A DNA stretch of 32,897 nucleotides from Nitrospira sp. Its GTDB lineage: Bacteria; Nitrospirota; Nitrospiria; Nitrospirales; Nitrospiraceae. A program made the translations under genes and the position numbers. Below the pieces are notes generated by a model. That model had not been told where the DNA came from. It searched no databases and saw only the letters and a list, made by a program, of their open reading frames with translations. Location: contig JAICUC010000007.1 in the NCBI GenBank assembly GCA_025936075.1, forward strand, positions 1-32,897, given 5' to 3'. This document shows, one piece after another, positions 1,055-17,233 of the stretch. Position 1 is the first letter of the stretch, and each line of letters begins with the position of its first letter.

Positions 1055-2323
1055 GTGTCAATAATCAAGGGCATCAAAGGTGTCAAAGATCTGTTACCGG
1101 AAGAAACGCCCCGCTGGCGCCTCATCGAAGAGGCAGCCAGACGGTGGGCGGCCCGCTATGGATTTCATGAAATTCGCATTCCGATCTTTGAAGTGACAAC
1201 CTTGTTTGCACGGAGTATCGGCGCCTCGACCGATATTGTCGAGAAGGAAATGTATACCTTCCAGGACCGGGACGGTACCTCGCTGACCCTTCGTCCTGAA
1301 GGGACTGCCGGGACAGTCCGAGCCTATATCGAGCACAATCGTGCCGCGATGCCCGTTCCTCAGAAGTATTTCTATTTCGGGCCCATGTTTCGTCACGAGC
1401 GGCCGCAAGCAGGGCGCTTGCGGCAATTTCATCAGTTCGGCGTCGAGTCGCTTAGCATGGCTGATCCCCAAGCTGACGTCGAGGTCATCGCCCTCCTCTG
1501 GCGAATCCTGACTAACCTCGATCTACCCGGTCTCACTTTGGAGATTAATAACCTCGGCTATACCGCTGATCGGGACACCTATCGGCCCCACCTCGTGAGG
1601 TACCTCAAGCAGTATGAATCCGATCTTTGTGCCAATTGTCGGCACCGTATTGAAACCAATCCTCTACGCGTCCTGGATTGTAAAGTTTCCGAGTGTCGCA
1701 CAATTACGGAGACCGCTCCCCGCTTAAACGACTCTCTTTCGGAGGCAGCTCGTTCGTACTTCACAAGAGTCTTATCCGGCCTTGATGCCGTTAAGATTCC
1801 ATACTCGTTGAATCACCGCCTCGTTCGAGGTCTTGATTACTATAACCTCACCACTTTCGAGATCACTTCGATCAACCTAGGCGCTCAGAATGCTGTGGGG
1901 GCAGGTGGACGCTATGATGGATTAGTTGAAACTCTCGGAGGGCCGCCGACTCCGGCGGTGGGTTTTGCCATTGGTCTTGAAAGAATGTCCATGTTGCTGC
2001 CGGATGACGTCGTAAGAAAAGCAACGAACGATGTGACTATCTATGTTGCCGGATTCGGTGCTCACGGTGTTTTAGCTGGTCTCACGGCCCTTGAAGAGCT
2101 TCGTCTTACCGGCCTCCAAGCAGTCTCTGATTTTAGGTCCGTAACTTTGAAGGCTCACTTACGGCAAGCTGATCGTCTCGGGTGTCGGTTCACTCTCATC
2201 ATCGGCGATGATGAAGCAATAAAGGGGTCAGGTATTCTGCGTGATATGGAGACCAAAGTGCAGCATGACGTCAGTCTCTCCACTGTAGCCATTCAGATGC
2301 TCTCCCTCCTTCACGGTTCCTGA
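1055..2323 (+). CDS. hisS: Histidyl-tRNA synthetase
   Basis: 422 aa ORF with GTG start and upstream AAGGAGATGA; class II motifs including GIKGVKDLLPEE, TLRPEGTAGTVRAY, YFGPMFRHERPQAGRLRQFHQFGVE, GLDYYNLTTFEI, GGRYDGLVETLGG. Confidence 0.97.
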   Translation: MSIIKGIKGVKDLLPEETPRWRLIEEAARRWAARYGFHEIRIPIFEVTTLFARSIGASTDIVEKEMYTFQDRDGTSLTLRPEGTAGTVRAYIEHNRAAMPVPQKYFYFGPMFRHERPQAGRLRQFHQFGVESLSMADPQADVEVIALLWRILTNLDLPGLTLEINNLGYTADRDTYRPHLVRYLKQYESDLCANCRHRIETNPLRVLDCKVSECRTITETAPRLNDSLSEAARSYFTRVLSGLDAVKIPYSLNHRLVRGLDYYNLTTFEITSINLGAQNAVGAGGRYDGLVETLGGPPTPAVGFAIGLERMSMLLPDDVVRKATNDVTIYVAGFGAHGVLAGLTALEELRLTGLQAVSDFRSVTLKAHLRQADRLGCRFTLIIGDDEAIKGSGILRDMETKVQHDVSLSTVAIQMLSLLHGS

Positions 2324-2352
2324 AACGCATTTTTCAAGTTGACTTTCTTCTG

Positions 2353-2383
2353 AAAACCTCTTAATCTCCCATGAGGTTTTAAA
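2353..2383 (+). terminator. Possible terminator hairpin downstream of hisS
   Basis: Inverted repeat AAAACCTC (2353-2360) / GAGGTTTT (2373-2380) with 12 nt loop, followed by an AT-rich stretch. Confidence 0.35.
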
Positions 2384-2416
2384 TCTATAACTATATAAAA
2401 ATAATCATAAATTCCT

Positions 2417-2737
2417 GTGGATTCAAAGAAAATAGGTTTTCTTATGGCTCTTCCTCCATCACATACGAGCGCCGAGACTGTTCATGGTCTCGCACAGGCG
2501 GCTCTTGACGCAGGTCATGAGGTTTATTTGTACTTTATTGATGAAGGCGTGAAGAACATTCATACCGACCACTATCGAGCTCTCGCACAGGCAGGAGCCC
2601 GCATCTTTGCCTGTGCCTATGGGTGTCAACAGCATCACGTTCCAACGGCGACTCTTGATCCGAAGATGTCCCTCTGCGGCCTCGTCGTGCTATCCGGAAT
2701 CATTGAAGCCTGTGATCCGTTTCTGTCGTTTACCTGA
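2417..2737 (+). CDS. DsrE/TusD family sulfur-relay-like protein
   Basis: 106 aa; KKIGFLMALPPSHTSAETVHGLAQAALDAGHEVYLYFIDEGVKN...CGLVVLSGIIEACDPFLSFT has DsrE-fold character. Start (GTG 2417) is uncertain. Confidence 0.7.
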   Translation: MDSKKIGFLMALPPSHTSAETVHGLAQAALDAGHEVYLYFIDEGVKNIHTDHYRALAQAGARIFACAYGCQQHHVPTATLDPKMSLCGLVVLSGIIEACDPFLSFT

Positions 2738-2746
2738 TCATCTTTC

Positions 2747-3088
2747 ATGGCAAAAAATCTAGCCGTCATTATTCAAGAAGATCCACGAAAGAGCCGTCGT
2801 CCTGTCGAGGCTCTCCGCATTGCTCTTGGCCTTGCATCTGGATCTCACATGACGACCGTTGTTTTGCTCGGTGAGGCGGTCCGTCTCCTGGGAAATGAAA
2901 CCGACGATCTCCATGATGGAGAGATTCTTGAAAAATACCTTCCCGCGGTTGAACGGCTCGAAATTCCCTTCATTCTCTCTGACGCAGCGCATCAGATACC
3001 AGTTCGGGACGAATTCTCCATCAGACGAGAAAATAACGAAACTATCAACTCTTTCGTGCAATCCATGGATTGCACATTCGTTTTTTAA
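2747..3088 (+). CDS. DsrE/DsrF-like family protein
   Basis: 113 aa; MAKNLAVIIQEDPRKSRRPVEALRIALGLASGSHMTTVVLLGEAVRLLG resembles the DsrE/F fold; 9 nt after the preceding DsrE-like ORF. Confidence 0.6.
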   Translation: MAKNLAVIIQEDPRKSRRPVEALRIALGLASGSHMTTVVLLGEAVRLLGNETDDLHDGEILEKYLPAVERLEIPFILSDAAHQIPVRDEFSIRRENNETINSFVQSMDCTFVF

Positions 3089-3105
3089 ATCTGGAGTTTT
3101 CATTT

Positions 3106-3252
3106 ATGCCGGCGGTCATCTATGTTGTCCGTTCTCCGCTTCTTACCCTGTCCTGCGCATTCTTCTCTGGGAACAATCCAGCAGTGGTGCTCTCGCTGGA
3201 AGATCTCTTCTTCCAGGAAAAGTCTTGCGTGCGGAGGATATCTCCGAATTAA
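3106..3252 (+). CDS. Short DsrH/TusB-like ORF, possibly frameshifted
   Basis: MPAVIYVVRSPLLTLSCAFFSGNNPAVVLSLEDLFFQEKSCVRRISPN, 48 aa, third member of a DsrEFH-like order; shorter than typical TusB (~95 aa). The -1 frame continues as KVLRAEDISELMADALLSYE. Confidence 0.4.
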   Translation: MPAVIYVVRSPLLTLSCAFFSGNNPAVVLSLEDLFFQEKSCVRRISPN

Positions 3253-3281
3253 TGGCAGACGCGCTATTGTCCTATGAATAG

Positions 3282-3656
3282 GTATTGGCAATAAGTCCTT
3301 GCGGATAACAATTATGACTCTGTGACTCCGAAGTCTTGTTAGAAAGAGAATTAGTAGTCGTGGAAGTAGGAGTAGGAAAGTGAATAAAGAGAATAACTGT
3401 GAGAGTATTGATTTTATTCATAAAATACTGGTTCCTAATGAAGGATAACATTGGGGATTCGTTCTCTATGGAAGAGCTGCAACCTGTGAAAAGCTTGTGA
3501 AGAGGCGACAGGAGCTTGTGGTGATATCTTCACACAGCTCGACATGACCGGGTGCGGCATGGTATTCACCATCGCTTTTTGGCAAGTATGCGACCGGATC
3601 GAAGGATTGTTATCCACAGGTGTGAATAATCCTGTGTATATGAATTTTGAGACATT
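3282..3656 (+). other. oriC: Putative chromosomal replication origin (oriC)
   Basis: Non-coding interval just upstream of dnaA with TTATCCACA (3610-3618), inverted TGTGAATAA (3621-3629), near-boxes TGCGGATAA (3300-3308) and AGTGAATAA (3379-3387), and an AT-rich inverted repeat ATTTTAT-TC-ATAAAAT (3411-3426). Confidence 0.8.
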
Positions 3657-5000
3657 ATGAGTATCGATATTATGTGGCAGGATGCGCTGCAGTACATCCA
3701 AAAGAAGGTCCCGAAGCAGGTGTATGACACATGGTTCATACCGGTTCACCTGGATCGGATTGAAAATTCGACGGCGTACATTGGAGTTCCGAATAAATTT
3801 TTTGGAGAATGGTTGGATACTCATTATGGATTATTATTGGCAGAAGCCATAGCCACGGCTCGTGGTGGGGAGCTGATGACTGTCGCATTTACCGTCCGTG
3901 AGAAGGGAGCTACACCGCAAGGCGAACCCCAAGCTCTTATGAGTGGGCCTCGCGGTGGCATGCAGTCCAAGCCTCGGCGGGGAATCCAACTGAACCCCAA
4001 GTATACATTCAAGAATTTTGTCGTTGGCGCTGGGAATCAATTCGCCCATGCGGCCTGCATGGCAGTTGCCGAGCAGCCCGGGCACACTTATAACCCGCTT
4101 TTTATTTACGGTGGTGTGGGGCTAGGAAAGACTCACCTCTTGAACGCCATAGGAAACCACGTGGCTGAGAAGAGCGATCTGCGCATCGCATACTTGACCA
4201 CTGAACAATTTACCAATGAGGTGATTAACTCCATTCGCTATGACAAGATGATGGACCTGCGAAAGCGCTATCGACATATCGATATGCTCATGATCGACGA
4301 TATTCAGTTCCTGGTCGGGAAGGAACGGACGCAAGAAGAATTTTTCCATACATTCAATGCCTTGTACGAGGGACATAAACAGATTGTCCTCTCAAGCGAT
4401 CGCTTTCCTAAAGATATGCCGGATATCGAAGAGCGTCTCCGATCTCGCTTCGAATGGGGGCTGATTGCGGACTTGCAGCCGCCTGATGTGGAGACCCGTA
4501 TCGCCATCCTAAGAAAAAAATCAGAAGATGAGGGAGTCACACTGCCGGAAGATGTCGTCCAATTCCTATCGACTACCATGAAGAGCAATGTCCGCGAACT
4601 GGAAGGTAGCCTGGTTCGATTAGGCGCCTATGCCTCGTTGACCGGGCAAGTGATAACCCTTGATCTTGCCAAGAATGTCCTCCGCGATCTCATCGGGGAC
4701 AAGAAAAAGATCGTGGCGATGGATGATATTCAAGAGGCGGTCTGTACGCAGTTTCATGTGAAGATGACGGAACTCAAATCCCGTCGTCGGAGCAAGACCC
4801 TCGTGCATCCTCGACAGATCGCCATGTATCTGTGTCGCGAGCTGACCGACGCATCGTACCCTGAAATCGGGCGCCAATTCGGGGGCAAGGACCATACGAC
4901 CATTATTCACGCCTGCCGTCAGGTTGCGAAGGCCAAGGAGACCGACACGATGTTGCAAACGACGATTGAAACATTGAAAGAGCAAATTCTTAGAAACTAA
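3657..5000 (+). CDS. dnaA: Chromosomal replication initiator protein DnaA
   Basis: 447 aa; [78 protein letters not shown]. Confidence 0.98.
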
Positions 5001-5023
5001 GCGCTTGGTCGGGAGAGGTCTCC

Positions 5024-8799
<3,776 letters not shown>

Positions 8800-8881
8800 C
8801 GTTATTTGTTAATCGTGAATAGCAGGAGAAGATCGGATTCTTGCGTTTCACGTTTTCACGAGTAACGATTAGCGAGGGATC

Positions 8882-11359
8882 ATGCCTCCCGATGAACGTT
8901 TAGAACATATCGACATCGAAGATGAAATGCGCTCGTCGTACTTGAGTTACGCGATGAGCGTGATCGTGGGACGCGCGCTTCCTGATGTCCGTGACGGGCT
9001 CAAACCGGTTCATCGCCGCATCCTGTTCGGCATGAATGAAATGGGCCTCGCCTCCAATCGGGCCTACCGGAAATCCGCCAAGATCGTCGGCGAAGTCATG
9101 GGGAATTATCATCCCCATGGAAACATGCCCATCTACGACGCGCTCGTTCGAATGGCGCAAAACTTCAACATGCGTTATCCGCTCATCGACGGTCAGGGAA
9201 ATTATGGGTCGATGGATGGTGATCCGCCGGCCGCAGAACGGTATACCGAAGCGCGTATGACCAAACTGGCCGAGGAGATGTTGGCCGACATCGACAAAGA
9301 AACGGTCGATCTCGGCCCGAATTACGACGAATCGCTGCAGGAACCGTTGGTTCTACCGACGAGGGTGCCGAATCTTTTGATCAATGGCGCGGGCGGCATC
9401 GCGGTGGGCTATGCGACCAACATTCCGACGCACAACATTGCCGAGATCATCGATGGGTTGCTCTTGCTGTTGGAGAACCCGGAGGTGACGATCGCCCAAC
9501 TGATGAAAAAGATCCCGGGCCCTGATTTCCCCACGGCCGGATTCATCTACGGTATGAGTGGGATCAAAGAGGCCTATGAGACCGGCCGAGGCCTTCTCAC
9601 CATACGGGCGAAAGTCGTGGTGGAGACCGAGGAACGCACCGATCGCGAGCGCCTCATCGTCACAGAGATCCCATACCAAGTCAACAAGGTGACATTGATC
9701 AAAAAGATTGCCGAGTTGGTTCAGGAAGACCGCATCAAAGGCATCTCGGATTTGCGAGACGAATCATCGGATCGCGAAGGGGTGCGGGTGGTGATCGAGC
9801 TGAAGCGAGGTGAAATCCCCTTGGTGGTGTTGAACAATCTGTACAAGCACACACCGCTCGAAACCACCTTCGGGGTCATCATGCTGGCCCTCGTCAATAA
9901 TCGACCGGAAATCCTGAATCTTAAGCAAATCCTCCATCACTTCCTTGAGCATCGACGCGAAGTCGTCGTGCGGCGGACGGCTTTCGACCTGAGAAAAGCA
10001 GAGGAGCGCGCGCATATTTTGGAAGGCCTTAAGATCGCGCTGGACAATCTCGACGCCGTGATCACGCTCATCAGGCGATCGCAATCACCCGATGAAGCGC
10101 GTGTCGGTTTAATGCGGCAATTCGGTCTTACCGAGATTCAAGCCAATGCGATCCTCGACATGCGGCTCCAGCGTCTGACACAGTTGGAACGCGCCAAACT
10201 CGTCGAGGAATACCAGGAAGTGCTCAAACAGATCGAATACCTGAAGTCCGTGCTCGCGAGCGAGGCACTGGTCCGGACCATTATCAAAGACGAGCTGACG
10301 GAAATTCGCGAGGCCTACAAGGACGAGCGACGAACCCAGATCGTCAAAGAAGAGGCGGAGATCAACCTCGAAGACCTGATCGCGGAAGAAGAAGTGATCG
10401 TGACCATCTCGCACACCGGCTACATCAAACGGAATGCCGTGTCTCTTTATCGTGCGCAGCGACGAGGCGGCAAGGGCAAGATCGGAATGGGCATCAAAGA
10501 AGAAGACTTCGTCGAGAATCTCTTTACCGCCTCCACCCATGATTCACTGCTTTTTTTCACGGACGCGGGAAAGGTCTACTGGTTGAAAGTCCATGAAATT
10601 CCGGAAGCCAGCCGGGCCGCAAAGGGCAAGGCCCTGGTCAATCTGCTTGCCCTGTCGGGAAGCGAAAAAGTCACGGCGACGTTGCCGGTGAAAGAGTTCC
10701 GAGAAGACCGATATATCGTGATGGGTACTAAGAAAGGCATCATCAAGAAGACAGAACTGTCCGCCTTCAGCAATCCAAGGCAGGGCGGCATCATTGCCTT
10801 GGGACTTGAGGGCGGCGATAGATTGATCGGCGTACAATTGACCGATGGGCAGCGGGAAATTCTTCTGGGGACCCGACAGGGCATTACCATTCGGTTTAAA
10901 GAGGAAGAAGTGAGGTCAATGGGACGGACGGCATACGGTGTGAAAGGGATCACGCTTGAAGAGGGGAACGAAGTCATCGGCATGGAAACCATTACCCCTG
11001 ATTCCACCACCTCGATCTTGACCATCACGGAAGGCGGCTACGGTAAACGGACGCCCGTGGGTGAATATCGTGTTCAGGGTCGCGGCGGCAAGGGCATTAT
11101 CAGCGTCAAGACGACTGAACGAAACGGACCGGCCGTCGGATTTCTGCAAGTACGAGACGGCGACGAAATCATGTTGATCGCCGCGCAAGGAAAAGTGCTT
11201 CGTTGCAAAGTAGACGACATCCGCGAAATCGGCCGGAATACCCAAGGTGTTCGTATTCTCGACCTCGATGGCGAAGGGGATCGAGTCGTAGGCGTCGCAA
11301 GACTCGCGGAAGCAGTCGAACGAGAGGACGCGGGTACGGAGGGTGTGCCAGAGACCTAA
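8882..11359 (+). CDS. gyrA: DNA gyrase subunit A
   Basis: 825 aa; SYLSYAMSVIVGRALPDVRDGLKPVHRRILFGMNEMG, YHPHGNMPIYDALVRMAQ, GQGNYGSMDGDPPAAERYTEARM, and C-terminal beta-pinwheel repeats including RGGKG. Confidence 0.97.
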   Translation: MPPDERLEHIDIEDEMRSSYLSYAMSVIVGRALPDVRDGLKPVHRRILFGMNEMGLASNRAYRKSAKIVGEVMGNYHPHGNMPIYDALVRMAQNFNMRYPLIDGQGNYGSMDGDPPAAERYTEARMTKLAEEMLADIDKETVDLGPNYDESLQEPLVLPTRVPNLLINGAGGIAVGYATNIPTHNIAEIIDGLLLLLENPEVTIAQLMKKIPGPDFPTAGFIYGMSGIKEAYETGRGLLTIRAKVVVETEERTDRERLIVTEIPYQVNKVTLIKKIAELVQEDRIKGISDLRDESSDREGVRVVIELKRGEIPLVVLNNLYKHTPLETTFGVIMLALVNNRPEILNLKQILHHFLEHRREVVVRRTAFDLRKAEERAHILEGLKIALDNLDAVITLIRRSQSPDEARVGLMRQFGLTEIQANAILDMRLQRLTQLERAKLVEEYQEVLKQIEYLKSVLASEALVRTIIKDELTEIREAYKDERRTQIVKEEAEINLEDLIAEEEVIVTISHTGYIKRNAVSLYRAQRRGGKGKIGMGIKEEDFVENLFTASTHDSLLFFTDAGKVYWLKVHEIPEASRAAKGKALVNLLALSGSEKVTATLPVKEFREDRYIVMGTKKGIIKKTELSAFSNPRQGGIIALGLEGGDRLIGVQLTDGQREILLGTRQGITIRFKEEEVRSMGRTAYGVKGITLEEGNEVIGMETITPDSTTSILTITEGGYGKRTPVGEYRVQGRGGKGIISVKTTERNGPAVGFLQVRDGDEIMLIAAQGKVLRCKVDDIREIGRNTQGVRILDLDGEGDRVVGVARLAEAVEREDAGTEGVPET

Positions 11360-11399
11360 CTGACAGAGCAGTTCAATACACGAGCAGGTATCCTCTCTC

Positions 11400-11987
11400 A
11401 TGCCTTCCGGCAGTCCCAAGAACAAAAAGCCGCTGGACATCGTCGTAAAATTCGGGCTTGCCGTCTTTGTGGGATCCTTCGCCCTGATCTGGGGTGGCAT
11501 GTACCTCAGCCGTCCCGATCGATCGATTCCTCCCTACACCGTTGGCTCTCAGTCAGGTCATGTCGTCGCGACGGATGTCCCCTCGGGGACTCACGATGAT
11601 CAAATCGCGAAATTACTGAATCGTTTCCGAAAAGTCGGTCATGAGACCCGCGATTTCGGTCGCATGAAGATTTATCCCACGACACCGGGTAGTTCGGGAG
11701 GCCGGTACAGACAGATTGTGATTTATGTGTTCGACGATCATGGATGGACTGATCCGGACGTGTTGGCAAAGTTTCTGACGGGAGACGCGACAGCGATCAA
11801 GAACTATGAAAAATCCATGCGAGGATACTATCGATTGCTGGACCAAGAGGAAGAAGGAGGCTTGGGTCCTATCCCCAAGGATGGACGGATTACCAGTGAC
11901 ACGCGGATTCTCTTCAAGGGGCTTGTGACGGACCCCTTGCCGGTCGAGGCGGAAGATGAGCCGGGTATTTCGATATCACCTCTCTAA
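11400..11987 (+). CDS. Hypothetical protein with one N-terminal transmembrane segment
   Basis: 195 aa ORF 40 nt after gyrA; VVKFGLAVFVGSFALIWGGMYL hydrophobic segment followed by a soluble domain; no family recognised. Confidence 0.6.
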   Translation: MPSGSPKNKKPLDIVVKFGLAVFVGSFALIWGGMYLSRPDRSIPPYTVGSQSGHVVATDVPSGTHDDQIAKLLNRFRKVGHETRDFGRMKIYPTTPGSSGGRYRQIVIYVFDDHGWTDPDVLAKFLTGDATAIKNYEKSMRGYYRLLDQEEEGGLGPIPKDGRITSDTRILFKGLVTDPLPVEAEDEPGISISPL

Positions 11988-12417
11988 GCCGCTCACGGAT
12001 GGACGGATCTTGAATCATGGCGGTATGCGATACCAACTCAACCCAAGATTTCTCCGACAAAGCGGGCCTGATATCGGAGATGAGGCTTGTGGGGCAAACC
12101 TCTGTCTCGCTAGGAATCTCACCGACGCGAAACGCAATCTCAGTGACAGACCCCGTTCCTGACTCTGCCTGCAGTTTCGCTAAGAGCGCCGGTTTGAGGA
12201 ATGTCAGCTGTTGCAACCAGACGGAATTTCTGACGATCAGATAGAGCTTTTTGAAGCGGATCTGTGCCGGCCAGGTGTGGGAAGCCATGGGCTCGCCCAC
12301 GATATCGCGCCAGCGACGCTGCAAACGAAGTTCCAGCATCCTCGATTCGAGACCAAGCCGCTTGGAAAGGCCGGAAAGGATGCTGCCGAAGGAATCAAGT
12401 GTACGTGGACCGATCAT
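11914..12417 (-). CDS. DUF721 / DciA-like protein (replicative helicase loader family)
   Basis: 167 aa; SFGSILSGLSKRLGLESRMLELRLQRRWRDIVGEPMASHTWPAQIRFKKLYLIVRNSVWLQQLTFLKPALLAKL matches the DUF721 pattern (W..ivG..ia.ht.p..i....L.v.v.ss.W...L). 3' end overlaps the convergent ORF 11400-11987. Confidence 0.75.
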   Translation of the reverse strand: MIGPRTLDSFGSILSGLSKRLGLESRMLELRLQRRWRDIVGEPMASHTWPAQIRFKKLYLIVRNSVWLQQLTFLKPALLAKLQAESGTGSVTEIAFRVGEIPSETEVCPTSLISDIRPALSEKSWVELVSHTAMIQDPSIRERLREVISKYPAHLPPRPARGPSQAP

Positions 12418-12468
12418 GTGGCATCATAAGCGGTAGCCGGGAAATAGATCAAGGTATCGGGTCGGGTC

Positions 12469-12942
12469 ATGACTAAAGAGACGGAAGATCAGCGGAAAGT
12501 CGTCGCCACTAATCGGAAGGCCTACCACGACTATTTTATCGAAGAAAAGTTCGAGGCCGGGATTGTGCTCAAAGGCACCGAGGTGAAATCGCTTCGGGAG
12601 AGGCGAGTGAACTTGCAAGACAGTTATGCGGGCGTTAAAGAAGGCGAGGCCTTTCTCCATCATTGCCACATCAGCCCGTATAGTCATGGCAACATGATGA
12701 ACCATGACCCGATCAGAACCCGCAAATTGCTCCTTCATCGAAAGGAGATCAACAAGCTTCTCGGGAAAACCCAGCAGAAAGGCCTCACGCTGATCCCTCT
12801 TCGAATCTATTTTTCGGAACGGGGTCAGGCGAAGGTCGAACTTGGATTAGCAAAAGGAAAGAAACAACATGATCGCCGAGAATCGATCAAGGCTCGAGAA
12901 GCCGGACGAGAAGTGGAACGAGCGATCAAAGAACGGAAGTAG
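12469..12942 (+). CDS. smpB: SsrA-binding protein SmpB
   Basis: 157 aa; [120 protein letters not shown]. Confidence 0.97.
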
Positions 12943-13165: not shown

Positions 13166-13249
13166 TTATTCACTGTCAAGGAACACCGCCTTATACATAA
13201 ACCCAAAAACAGCGGTCAACGCGAGCAATGCAAAGAATATCGTCGTCAT
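13166..13249 (-). CDS. Small single-TM protein (27 aa)
   Basis: Hand-translated ATG(13249) to TAA: MTTIFFALLALTAVFGFMYKAVFLDSE; purine-rich SD-like sequence GAAGGGGGGTG upstream. Too short for the ORF track. Confidence 0.5.
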   Translation of the reverse strand: MTTIFFALLALTAVFGFMYKAVFLDSE

Positions 13250-13313
13250 GGTTTTTCACCCCCCTTCATTCGTGAATATACTCCTCGAAGATGAATGGTC
13301 GATGATGAGATCG

Positions 13314-13327
13314 TGAAGAGTTCTTCA
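13314..13327. promoter_or_regulatory. Operator-like palindrome, copy 2
   Basis: TGAAGAGTTCTTCA, one base different from the perfect palindrome at 13896-13909 and with shared flanks (GTGAAGAG[T/C]TCTTCATT); about 65 nt upstream of the 27-aa ORF start on the minus strand. Confidence 0.4.
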
Positions 13328-13351
13328 TTTGTAGTAGTGCGTTCCAGCAAG

Positions 13352-13513
13352 TCACGAAGTTTCCGAGGAGTTAAGCACGCTTCCGATCGAGCTTTGGACA
13401 TCATCCCTAGCATGTCCTTCATGAGGACGCCGCCAGGAACCAATTTCCTGGCTTCCCCACAGTATAAGCCCGACAAAACTCATGGCGAGTATGAAGAGGA
13501 AAGTCGCCATCAT
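13352..13513 (-). CDS. Small single-TM protein (53 aa)
   Basis: Hand-translated ATG(13513) to TGA: MMATFLFILAMSFVGLILWGSQEIGSWRRPHEGHARDDVQSSIGSVLNSSETS; strong SD GGAGGAGA upstream. Preferred over the TTG-start 76 aa ORF in another frame. Confidence 0.55.
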   Translation of the reverse strand: MMATFLFILAMSFVGLILWGSQEIGSWRRPHEGHARDDVQSSIGSVLNSSETS

Positions 13514-13571
13514 GAATTTCTCCTCCATGCGCCGTCAAGTTTCAGCATGCTCATCAAGTAGTTGAAGGCCT

Positions 13572-13811
13572 TCAACGCGGTGCAAATACGGCACATCCAG
13601 GTATAAAGCAAACCTTGCAACGTGTCTCTTCTTTGCGTGATGCTTGGACTATTTCGTTCGATGTCATGAAAGGGATCTTCTGATCCTTGATTTCCTCGGC
13701 TGTATCACGGACTGTTCTTCCGGCCGAGTGTGTCCCCACGATAATTGCTTGTCCGAGTCCAGCGATGACGTACGGAAAACAGACCATTGAAGCAGCGATA
13801 ATACTTGCCAT
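13572..13811 (-). CDS. Small membrane protein with C-terminal Cys motif (79 aa from internal ATG)
   Basis: MASIIAASMVCFPYVIAGLGQAIIVGTHSAGRTVRDTAEEIKDQKIPFMTSNEIVQASRKEETRCKVCFIPGCAVFAPR; AAGGATTGG SD-like sequence before the ATG at 13811. Track lists an extended 100 aa version to 13874. Confidence 0.5.
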   Translation of the reverse strand: MASIIAASMVCFPYVIAGLGQAIIVGTHSAGRTVRDTAEEIKDQKIPFMTSNEIVQASRKEETRCKVCFIPGCAVFAPR

Positions 13812-13895
13812 GTATTCCAATCCTTTCTTGAGCTCATTCAATACGCAATACGAGGAAGCATAACGAGCCGACATGAAAGCAGGATGAAATCATGG

Positions 13896-13909
13896 TGAAG
13901 AGCTCTTCA
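13896..13909. promoter_or_regulatory. Operator-like perfect palindrome, copy 1
   Basis: TGAAGAGCTCTTCA, perfect 14-bp palindrome about 85 nt upstream of the 79-aa ORF start on the minus strand; near-identical copy at 13314-13327. Confidence 0.4.
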
Positions 13910-14022: not shown

Positions 14023-15459
14023 TTAGGCAAGAACCGTCTGTTGAGCGAGAGCCGGTAACCGTAGGGTGAAGACGGAGCCTCTGTGGACTTCGCTGGTGAC
14101 GGAAATGCTTCCGCCATGGGCATCCATGATTTCCTTCACGATGGGAAGTCCTAGCCCTGTACCGGCGGAATCTTTTGCCCGGGCCCAATCGGTGCGGTAG
14201 AATCGTTCAAAAAGATGGGGAATGTTCTCCGGCTCGATTCCATGGCCTGTGTCCTCGACCTCTACCGTCACTTCTTGACCTACGGCTTGCAGGCGGATGG
14301 TAACTGCTCCACCGGTCGGAGTGTAACGCAGCGCATTGTCGAGCAAATTGATCAATGCTTGTTTGAGCCACTGTGCGTCGCCGAGTACGGAGGGAACCGG
14401 CTGAGGTTCAAACCGCAAGGTGATCTGGCGGTCATCCGCCAAAAGAATCAACTCATCCACAATCTCTTGAATAAGAGGCTCCAAGACGAGCGGGACGAGA
14501 TTGACAGGCGGCTTGCTACTGGTGAATTTCGCAAGGGTCAACAACGGGCGGGTTAAGGCGATGAGCCGATCCACTTGCTGGAGGTTGTTGAGCAACACTT
14601 CGCGATATTCTTCGACAGTTCTCGCTTTCATGAGTGCGACCTCCAGATTGCCCTGCAGGATGGTCAAGGGGGTCCTCATCTCATGGGCGGCGATCTCGCA
14701 GAAGTTCCGTTGTACCTCGCTACCTCGTTGGAACTGATCCAATACCGAGTTGACTGCCTGAGTCAGTCGCCGAAATTCCCGATAGGGTGAATCCATCGGC
14801 AGACGTTTCCCAAGGTCGGCTTCCGACATGGTTTCAGCGCCCCTACACAACGCCTCGATCGGAGCCATCACTTTCTTTGCCAGCCAGAGGCTTCCGACCC
14901 AGGCCAGGATAAGAGTGGCCCCGGATCCGAGGGTGAGCAGGAACACAAGGCCATACAAGGTTTCCTGGTAATGCAGCAACGAAGTCTCGGCCTGCACGAT
15001 GTACTGCGCACGACCTTTGCCGAGGAGATAGAGGAATAAATGCCGCGCTGGCGTCCCATCAGGCGTCTTGAGCGTCTCGAACAGGATATTTTTGAGGCGG
15101 ACCTGTTCCAACACACGAGAAGGGAGCAATCCTTGCACAGTTGCGTGAGGACTTCTCCACAAGAGCGAGCCGTCGGTTGAAAAGACACGGAGGGCGTGGG
15201 TCACGTCGGGCAGTACATGCTGTTCCGTTGTGTTTTGGGTCAACTCGTTGGTCGGAGGAGTATCCTTGCCGCCTTGTTCAAAGAACTCGGGATACCGCTC
15301 GACAAACTCGGCCAGAGTTTCCGCCAACACCAGCAGTCGCCCATCCACTAATCGTTGTAACAAAATCTCGCTGGCGGCGTATACGAGCGCAGAAAACGCG
15401 AGAAGACCGGCCATCAACACGAAGGCTGACCAGCTGATCAAGGTCCGCAGAGATTTCAT
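14023..15459 (-). CDS. Sensor histidine kinase (HAMP domain, OmpR-pair type)
   Basis: 478 aa; N-terminal TM, second TM plus HAMP, H-box EIAAHEMRTPLTILQGNLEVAL, N-box LKQALINLLDNALRYTPTGG, G-boxes VEVEDTGHGIEPENIPHLFERFYRTD and GTGLGLPIVKEIMDAHGG. Confidence 0.95.
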   Translation of the reverse strand: MKSLRTLISWSAFVLMAGLLAFSALVYAASEILLQRLVDGRLLVLAETLAEFVERYPEFFEQGGKDTPPTNELTQNTTEQHVLPDVTHALRVFSTDGSLLWRSPHATVQGLLPSRVLEQVRLKNILFETLKTPDGTPARHLFLYLLGKGRAQYIVQAETSLLHYQETLYGLVFLLTLGSGATLILAWVGSLWLAKKVMAPIEALCRGAETMSEADLGKRLPMDSPYREFRRLTQAVNSVLDQFQRGSEVQRNFCEIAAHEMRTPLTILQGNLEVALMKARTVEEYREVLLNNLQQVDRLIALTRPLLTLAKFTSSKPPVNLVPLVLEPLIQEIVDELILLADDRQITLRFEPQPVPSVLGDAQWLKQALINLLDNALRYTPTGGAVTIRLQAVGQEVTVEVEDTGHGIEPENIPHLFERFYRTDWARAKDSAGTGLGLPIVKEIMDAHGGSISVTSEVHRGSVFTLRLPALAQQTVLA

Positions 15460-16139
15460 GCGGAGGCATCCGGCTCTTCGAGCATATATCCGGCGCCACG
15501 CACCGTGGCGATCAAAGGCGGCGAAAAGTCCCGGTCGATCTTCGCGCGGAGGGCTCGAATGTGGGCATCGACGATATTCGTCATGGGATCATAACTGATG
15601 TCCCACACATGCTCAATGATTGCCGTTCGGGTGAGCACGCGATTCTTGTTTCGGAGCAGGAATTCGAGCAGGGCATATTCTTTATTCGTCAGAGAGATTT
15701 CCTGTCCTGCGCGCCAGACACGGTGAGAAGCCGGGTCTAACCGAAGGTCGGCCGCCTGAAGATGGGCAATTTGCTGGGAGCTCCCGCGGCGCAAGAGCGC
15801 CCTGATCCGTGCCAGCAATTCCGCGAAGGCGAACGGCTTCGGCATAAACTGATCCGCGCCGGTATCAAAGCCGGAGACTTTGGTCTCCAAGTTGTTTCGC
15901 GCGGTCAGTAGCAGCACCGGAGTGGAGATGCCTTTGTTACGAACGCGGCGGCAGAGGGTCAGGCCGTCGAGCTTGGGTAACATGATGTCCAGGATCATCA
16001 GATCATAGGAATTGTCCAGAGCCAACGCCAAGCCGGCTTCCCCGTCGGCGGCGACGTCCACCACATAATGCTCTTCCTTCAATCCTTTTCTGATGAATTG
16101 CGCAAGATCCGCATCGTCTTCAACGAGCAGAATTCTCAT
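15456..16139 (-). CDS. OmpR/PhoB-family response regulator
   Basis: 227 aa; MRILLVEDDADLAQFIRKGLKEEHYVVDVAADGEAGL, DLMILDIMLPKLDGLTLCRRVR, winged-helix TNKEYALLEFLLRNKNRVLTRTAIIEHVWD; overlaps the kinase start. Confidence 0.96.
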   Translation of the reverse strand: MRILLVEDDADLAQFIRKGLKEEHYVVDVAADGEAGLALALDNSYDLMILDIMLPKLDGLTLCRRVRNKGISTPVLLLTARNNLETKVSGFDTGADQFMPKPFAFAELLARIRALLRRGSSQQIAHLQAADLRLDPASHRVWRAGQEISLTNKEYALLEFLLRNKNRVLTRTAIIEHVWDISYDPMTNIVDAHIRALRAKIDRDFSPPLIATVRGAGYMLEEPDASA

Positions 16140-16178: not shown

Positions 16179-16796
16179 TCAACAGAGACTACTCTTGCAA
16201 TCTGTGACCACCAGATTAATTGCTTTTTCGTCAGCATCGAGATCAATGGTTAACCAGGCTATTCCCATCGCTCGCTCATCCTGACGGGCTCCACCGCTCC
16301 CTTCAAGGGGACTGATAACATAATAGCGGCCGGCCGGAACTTTCGTGAACCAAAAGTGACCGGTTGGATTGGCCCTTGTCGTGCGGAGATAGGGAATAAG
16401 GCGCTTATCGGCCAGTAGTTGGGCCATGATCGTGCGGAGGCATTCCGTAGGCGACTCCTGAGCCACTGGGGATTCTGAAGACGAGGTCCCAGTTTTTAAA
16501 GGGCAGGAGTAATCCCGCACATTTCTGTCGAACCAATAGCGAGTATATGAAACAACTGGAATCAAATAGATTGAAGCTCCGGCCTGAGTCACGGCTTTTC
16601 CAGAGGTTGCGCGCAAGAACACCTGTCCAGCCGCGCCGCTCCGGCCTTTGGCCCGGTAGGCGAAGAGCTCTTTTTCGTTGAAGGCCGGTGGGATCGATGA
16701 ACTCGACACCACCGCCTGTGCCGATACCACGTGGAAGCTGCTGATCAGCAGTAGACAGATGAAGCAGCACCGGAGTTGCCTGCCACGCCGCGTCAT
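16179..16796 (-). CDS. Secreted hypothetical protein, possibly carboxypeptidase-regulatory-like beta-sandwich
   Basis: 205 aa; signal peptide-like CFICLLLISSFHVVSAQA; C-terminal TGHFWFTKVPAGRYYVISPLEG. Start overlaps the stop of the FTR-like gene (ATGA). Confidence 0.6.
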   Translation of the reverse strand: MTRRGRQLRCCFICLLLISSFHVVSAQAVVSSSSIPPAFNEKELFAYRAKGRSGAAGQVFLRATSGKAVTQAGASIYLIPVVSYTRYWFDRNVRDYSCPLKTGTSSSESPVAQESPTECLRTIMAQLLADKRLIPYLRTTRANPTGHFWFTKVPAGRYYVISPLEGSGGARQDERAMGIAWLTIDLDADEKAINLVVTDCKSSLC

Positions 16797-17233
16797 GTCG
16801 AGGAGGCTGACGGCGCCGTGGATTCGTCGGACCCGGTTGCAGTTGGGATTGCCTTGTGTTTGAGGGCGCGACCTTTGTCGGGGGTCGGATCGGTGACCAC
16901 GCCGTACACTTCGCGACCTTCATGGCCGTCCGGCAAATATTCCGTAATCGGCATTCCATCTTCACGGACAAAAAGGAGACAATGACAGTATTTGTAGATC
17001 TGCATTTCGTCGCATGCGCAGATCCACCGGCGGAGCTTGGCTTCGGCTTCTTTGTCCTTATAAAAGTTACAAGGGCAGAGCGGTTTCCCGAGTTCGTCGA
17101 TATGAGACGCTAATCCCTTGACCACCGCCTCGGTTACAGCGGTATTGGGATGCATCGAGGTTCCGCTTTTCTCGGCAAAACCCTGTACGAACTTCCGTAT
17201 TTTATCGAGGCTTTCCTGCGTTGGTTCGGCCAT
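16793..17233 (-). CDS. Ferredoxin:thioredoxin reductase catalytic (beta) subunit-like protein
   Basis: 146 aa; CPC-NFYKDKEAEAKLRRWI(16)-CAC-DEMQIYKY(8)-CHC matches the FTR catalytic Cys pattern CPC-X16-CPC-X8-CHC with one P-to-A change. Confidence 0.85.
   Translation of the reverse strand: MAEPTQESLDKIRKFVQGFAEKSGTSMHPNTAVTEAVVKGLASHIDELGKPLCPCNFYKDKEAEAKLRRWICACDEMQIYKYCHCLLFVREDGMPITEYLPDGHEGREVYGVVTDPTPDKGRALKHKAIPTATGSDESTAPSASST

Follow-up and report, generated by a model that had tools for sequence, protein, structure and literature searches.

Small inner-membrane proteins as probable outputs of an adjacent two-component system in a comammox-type Nitrospira

The window analysed here is a stretch of 32,897 nucleotides from Nitrospira sp., in which a response regulator (RR) and a sensor kinase (HK) are encoded on the minus strand beside three short open reading frames and two copies of a 36-bp element. 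Judged from its gene content, the host assembly (3.58 Mb, 432 contigs) is a comammox-type Nitrospira, because it encodes AmoC. The features discussed below are as follows.

13166-13249, minus strand: ORF27, a 27-aa single-TM micropeptide, MTTIFFALLALTAVFGFMYKAVFLDSE, recognised by synteny and dN/dS
13275-13280, minus strand: predicted -10 box TATATT of the ORF27 promoter, at the +46 position of the element; a promoter scan agrees
13291-13326, minus strand: element 2, GAAGAACTCTTCACGATCTCATCATCGACCATTCAT, predicted RR site with 1 mismatch, preceding ORF27 by 77 bp
13352-13513, minus strand: ORF53/58, 53 aa, or 58 aa with the upstream ATG at 13528 (ORF list)
13572-13811, minus strand: ORF79, with an N-terminal hydrophobic helix and CxxCxxxxC near the C-terminus (ORF list, syntenic orthologues)
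13857-13862, minus strand: predicted -10 box TATGCT of the ORF79 promoter, at +46 of element 1
13873-13908, minus strand: element 1, GAAGAGCTCTTCACCATGATTTCATCCTGCTTTCAT, predicted RR site with 0 mismatches, preceding ORF79 by 97 bp
14023-15459, minus strand: sensor HK, 478 aa (Pfam HisKA/HATPase_c), with a periplasmic sensor modelled as Cache/PAS-like
15456-16139, minus strand: OmpR/PhoB-family RR (Response_reg and Trans_reg_C), predicted binder of the element
16179-16796, minus strand: secreted 205-aa protein (sec205), the order FTRb-sec205-RR-HK being kept in the genus
16793-17233, minus strand: ferredoxin-thioredoxin reductase beta-like protein (FTRb; FeThRed_B, E=1e-22)
16179-17233, minus strand: FTRb and sec205 together, upstream genes of a likely RR-HK operon

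The gene order smpB - small ORFs - HK - RR - sec205 - FTRb is kept in relatives within the genus. FTRb and sec205 precede RR-HK with overlapping starts and stops, an arrangement that is found genus-wide, and their position may hint at a redox signal. Elsewhere in the window (1055-12942), the grouping of hisS, a dnaA-like gene, dnaN, gyrB, gyrA, dciA and smpB suggests an origin-proximal region.

As the initial annotation had described, three minus-strand ORFs of 79, 53 and 27 aa are present, each with a hydrophobic stretch and an SD-like sequence upstream of its start; the best 19-residue Kyte-Doolittle means are 1.95 for ORF79 (SD-like AAGGATTGG), 2.47 for ORF53 (GGAGGAG) and 2.02 for ORF27 (GGGGGGTG). 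Its remark that none resembles a recognised family also stands: Pfam returned no family at E<=1 for any of the three, small subunits such as CydX and KdpF included, NCBIfam returned none at E<=0.1 for ORF79 and ORF27, and PHROGs and PDB gave no identity for the small ORFs. The expectation that the peptides would be conserved in relatives, with their frames maintained by selection, was borne out for ORF79 and ORF27 but not for ORF53.

About 10 Nitrospira genomes encode an ORF79 orthologue of 63-85% identity at the corresponding site, in the interval that separates smpB from the HK gene. Matches occur in 20 of 99 relatives, 10 of them strong and syntenic. A codon comparison of nine syntenic rows gave a dN/dS of 0.34 and indels of whole codons only. 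The protein does not end in CKVCFIPGC, as had been thought; this motif spans residues 65-73, and AVFAPR comes after it. Its three cysteines (C-x2-C-x4-C) are present in 10/10 aligned syntenic rows and in 0/3 divergent paralogues. AF2 placed a helix at residues 12-40 with low confidence (pLDDT 49), a hint of one long helix. A 100-aa version of ORF79 starting at 13874 was discarded because that start falls within element 1. In two relatives (L025 at ~5520-5950 and L031 at 8004-8321), a secreted protein of 105-140 aa with internal repeats (RRVDVIENTKGMVTQLD) is encoded 3' of ORF79; it had no significant family match.

ORF27 is 78-93% identical across relatives, where it is syntenic beside smpB, and has a dN/dS of 0.20 (n=13 sequences). 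It heads into the convergent smpB and has no same-strand gene directly downstream. A further 26-aa peptide of the MISFIEVFLLAAIFGVLYAMLQLASR type, which is missing from the window, occurs in most relatives (dN/dS 0.16). Because they are conserved in place and under purifying selection, ORF79 and ORF27 are, on this comparative evidence, real and conserved small proteins. The conservation of ORF53 is limited to its first 26 residues (~13436-13513), for which complete 26-aa counterparts exist in two close relatives, L024 and L027 (MMATFLFILTMSFVGLILWGSREIGS and MMAILLLVLVMSFVGLILLAIREAGF). Past residue 26, the ORF in the window is read-through of a lost stop codon. The frame is broken or startless in L030 and L032 and the ORF is absent in L028 and L029. 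We therefore rejected ORF53 as a conserved 53-aa protein: its conservation covers 26 residues in two close relatives, and in the others the sequence has decayed or is missing.

A 36-bp element, ATGAAGAnnTCTTCAY-N6-TTCAT-N6-TTCAT, is common to the sequences that precede the small ORFs; it contains three direct TTCAT repeats at 0, +11 and +22 (11-bp spacing). The host genome holds seven copies at <=3 mismatches, against none for a reversed-pattern control, and the element is found in 67 of 79 genomes of the genus, the control matching 0 times in all 79. A stricter pattern picks up a single copy, owing to variation in the middle repeat. Across 140 distinct elements, a -10 box (TAtnnT) follows 11 bp past the third repeat, with TA at +46/+47 (0.91 each) and T at +51; this box was not part of the search pattern. 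Conservation between copies is confined to the motif and does not extend to the flanking DNA. A variant of the GAAGAAGTTTTCATCTTCTCCTAATGCTCTCTTCAT type was seen in several genomes (L074, L083, G042:C2:541878 and G054:C2:101345), and in L074 and L083 it precedes a 105-aa protein of no assigned function upstream of a DEAD-box-helicase-like gene.

Three direct repeats with an 11-bp period and an adjoining -10 box are the layout of activator sites of the OmpR/PhoB family. The element has the features of such promoters, namely repeats of 10-11 bp and a -10 box at a fixed distance. Like the Pho box and other OmpR-PhoB sites, it has 11-bp direct repeats that end ~10 bp before the -10 box, with no clear -35. 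It differs from the Pho box in its three TTCAT repeats with an upstream inverted ATGAAGA arm, and in a regulator that is closest to the heavy-metal CopR/CusR family while scoring below that family's cut-off.

The RR scored 99.2 and 94.3 bits against the Pfam receiver and winged-helix Trans_reg_C models, both above cut-off. The nearest subfamilies of HK and RR are the heavy-metal CopS/CopR proteins, below curated cut-offs: the RR reached 260.2 bits against NCBIfam TIGR01387 (CopR/CusR/CzcR), where 279.2 is required for membership, and the HK reached 247.8 bits against its best NCBIfam model, cztS_silS_copS (TIGR01386, CopS/CusS/CzcS), where 292.55 is required. The HK sensor was modelled at pLDDT 77, with the WalK and KinD sensor domains among the best PDB matches, and no conserved Cys/His/Met metal-ligand cluster was seen in it. 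Given this and the family scores below cut-offs, we do not claim copper sensing by the HK; the predicted targets of the system suggest envelope or copper/AMO stress as a possible signal.

A close RR orthologue is present in 64 of the 79 genus genomes, and the element occurs in 63 of these 64 compared with 4 of the 15 genomes that lack the RR (Fisher p=1.7e-9, with phylogeny ignored). Three of those four genomes are incomplete and the other, G107, is 99% complete; conversely, G046 has the RR and yields no element when up to 3 mismatches are allowed. Among same-genus rows with a close RR, conservation of its recognition region reaches 92-100%. In AMO-less Nitrospira (RR 66-68% identical), a PepSY gene ~1 kb upstream of the RR gene is preceded by the element (loci L167, L168, L230 and L231, with PepSY identified by Pfam in L167). 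In another genus, the RR-HK pair (RR 65-67%) has elements on both sides, several of which are followed by hydrophobic peptides of 33-36 aa, MKQIIILAPAALLMVLVVAAIGVMIFWGLSLLDLSQ and MFLMPFLHPALLVFALLLVVTGFAIMILTADAFSD. The linkage between RR and element holds in several genera despite different neighbouring genes, and it is evidence independent of co-occurrence. The association of the element with the presence of AmoC was much weaker (p=3e-4) and is obscured where contig ends have cost assemblies their amo genes.

Hydrophobic ORFs of <=40 aa preceded by an SD follow 50 of the 140 elements (36%), compared with 0.43% of random positions, and start at +77 to +121 of the element, mostly at +77 to +91. 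The element also precedes the MISFIEVFLLAAIFGVLYAMLQLASR-type peptide. Micropeptide genes occur singly at other loci, some of them unlinked to and far from the HK (L151, L158, L161 and L162), and one lies directly beside the HK in nearly all genomes examined, AMO-less genera included. Other predicted targets include Slp-family lipoproteins, sensor kinases (among them a PAS sensor kinase), an uncharacterised lipoprotein-like gene adjoining a BBP2 porin, and a singleton amoD-amoC unit.

In comammox genomes, this last unit consists of the element, a 220-aa protein and then a singleton amoC. The 220-aa protein matches PmoD over residues 67-124 (PDB 6cpd_A, E=1.1e-5), a member of a copper protein family linked to pMMO/AMO (PMC6189053). 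Unlike PmoD, it has an extra N-terminal hydrophobic segment homologous to ORF27. This N-terminus corresponds to a fused ORF27-type peptide, with a common RBS context and an alignment score reached by 0-1 of 500 shuffles. The ORF27-like hydrophobic start can be seen in AmoD-like 220-aa proteins at L153:2964-3626 and L177-L187 (e.g., L180, L181 and L185), in which it is followed by a second hydrophobic segment ending in AHGNV. In G003 and G038, amoC lies just 3' of ORF79. The best site linked to an amoC in the host genome is a weak one, with 5 mismatches and the -10 box TATGTT. Several assemblies break at or just past the element-amoD-amoC unit (ends of G037:C3, G004:C177, G108:C188 and G007:C26), so the amoC counts in these four genomes are probably too low. 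We rejected the element and the peptides as a strict AMO marker, since AMO-less Nitrospira and other genera carry both.

Taken together, ORF79 and ORF27 probably encode genuine small inner-membrane proteins that are outputs of the adjacent two-component system. The earlier proposal that the ORFs are output of the kinase/regulator pair is well supported at the sequence level by an element that precedes ORF79 and ORF27, tracks the RR and flanks its orthologues in other genera. On activation of the kinase, the OmpR/PhoB-type RR would bind the three TTCAT repeats with their 11-bp period and, acting as an activator rather than a repressor, would recruit RNA polymerase to the -10 box 11 bp downstream. 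The RR would act at each micropeptide gene separately, through its own promoter, and would also drive the genes for the Slp lipoprotein, sensor kinases and the singleton amoD-amoC; the products of ORF79 and ORF27 would then insert into the inner membrane. The idea that the three ORFs form one cluster is not supported: ORF79 and ORF27 each have a predicted promoter of their own, conservation of ORF53 is poor, and elsewhere the peptides turn up one at a time.

What the peptides do is a more tentative matter. They may be stress-induced single-helix partners of inner-membrane complexes, the reading that we favour, with AMO/AmoD in comammox as its best concrete candidate at somewhat less than even odds. 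AMO cannot be the universal partner, because AMO-less genera carry hydrophobic micropeptides beside the same two-component system. The initial annotation had raised an accessory complex of a membrane enzyme; the element at the singleton amoD-amoC and the micropeptide at the AmoD N-terminus lend this only indirect support.

The main rival to the partner reading holds that the peptides modulate the kinase by feedback, comparable to the action of MgrB and SafA on PhoQ, such that an RR-induced single-TM peptide would dock on the transmembrane or periplasmic region of the HK and tune its activity. The adjacency of a micropeptide gene to the HK in nearly every genome, including those of AMO-less genera, favours this explanation, and MgrB, a 47-aa PhoP-regulated inhibitor of PhoQ, offers a precedent (PMC8404706). 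However, there are several different peptides per genome, some of them unlinked to the HK, and one peptide type is fused to AmoD. We consider kinase feedback somewhat unlikely, although it is the better fit in AMO-less genera and is compatible with a role as AMO partner. The Nitrospira peptides resemble MgrB and SafA of the PhoQ/PhoP and EvgS/EvgA systems in being very short and, by prediction, single-TM proteins under induction by an OmpR-family regulator, with genes close to the two-component system or within its predicted regulon. They differ in their length (25-36 aa, compared with 47-65 aa), in occurring several per genome with a promoter each and in matching no sequence family, and their contact with a kinase is hypothetical.

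The remaining explanations are less probable still. The element could be the site of another regulator or a dispersed repeat, its proximity to the two-component system being incidental; the four genomes with elements and no close RR are in keeping with this, and the palindrome and repeats could fit a different dimeric protein. Nevertheless, the element stays linked to the RR in several genera where the neighbouring genes differ, OmpR/PhoB sites typically show such a repeat period and -10 distance, and a dispersed repeat is at odds with conservation of the motif without its flanks, which makes this explanation improbable. A role of the short ORFs as leaders, translated to control a downstream gene and giving products with no protein function, is highly improbable: they are indeed very short and lie just past a promoter, and at amoD-amoC a longer ORF opens with the peptide, but selection acts at the amino-acid level along the peptides (dN/dS 0.16-0.20), ORF27 meets the convergent smpB instead of a same-strand gene, and no regulatory codon runs were seen. 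Short ORFs are common by chance, and ORF53 beyond residue 26 fits a chance open frame in part; for the three ORFs as a set this origin can nearly be dismissed, given that ORF79 and ORF27 are conserved, under selection and placed in a regulatory context.

Both small TM proteins controlled by two-component systems and sites resembling the pho box belong to known kinds. A family of peptides of <30 aa with many promoters, linked through one element to a singleton amoD-amoC and fused to AmoD, was not found in the libraries and the open-access subset of the literature that we searched. Non-operonal amoC copies are known from comammox and AOB genomes (PMC6311188), and the AOB amoC3 is part of a stress regulon (Berube and Stahl 2012, as cited in PMC6311188). 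The amoC3 of Nitrosomonas europaea is likewise a non-operonal amoC under stress-type control, which in Nitrospira is a prediction; its control involves an alternative sigma factor, unlike the two-component regulator predicted here (PMC6311188). A further difference is that here amoD with a micropeptide N-terminus precedes amoC.

In Nitrospirales, it is conceivable, if unlikely as a whole, that one two-component system deploys a family of single-helix peptides of 25-36 aa from many promoters, and that in comammox these have become accessory parts of the copper-dependent AMO system, one of them permanently fused to AmoD, in a circuit that would switch AMO composition under stress or changing copper. 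To our knowledge, little is established on the control of ammonia oxidation in comammox Nitrospira or on the role of the singleton amoC. Our analysis offers a specific regulator, a predicted binding site and a list of targets, and would place the singleton amoD-amoC under a two-component system of envelope type. A set of conserved micropeptide genes of <30 codons, which annotation easily overlooks, also comes to light, and the fused AmoD may serve as a natural clue to the binding partner of the free peptides.
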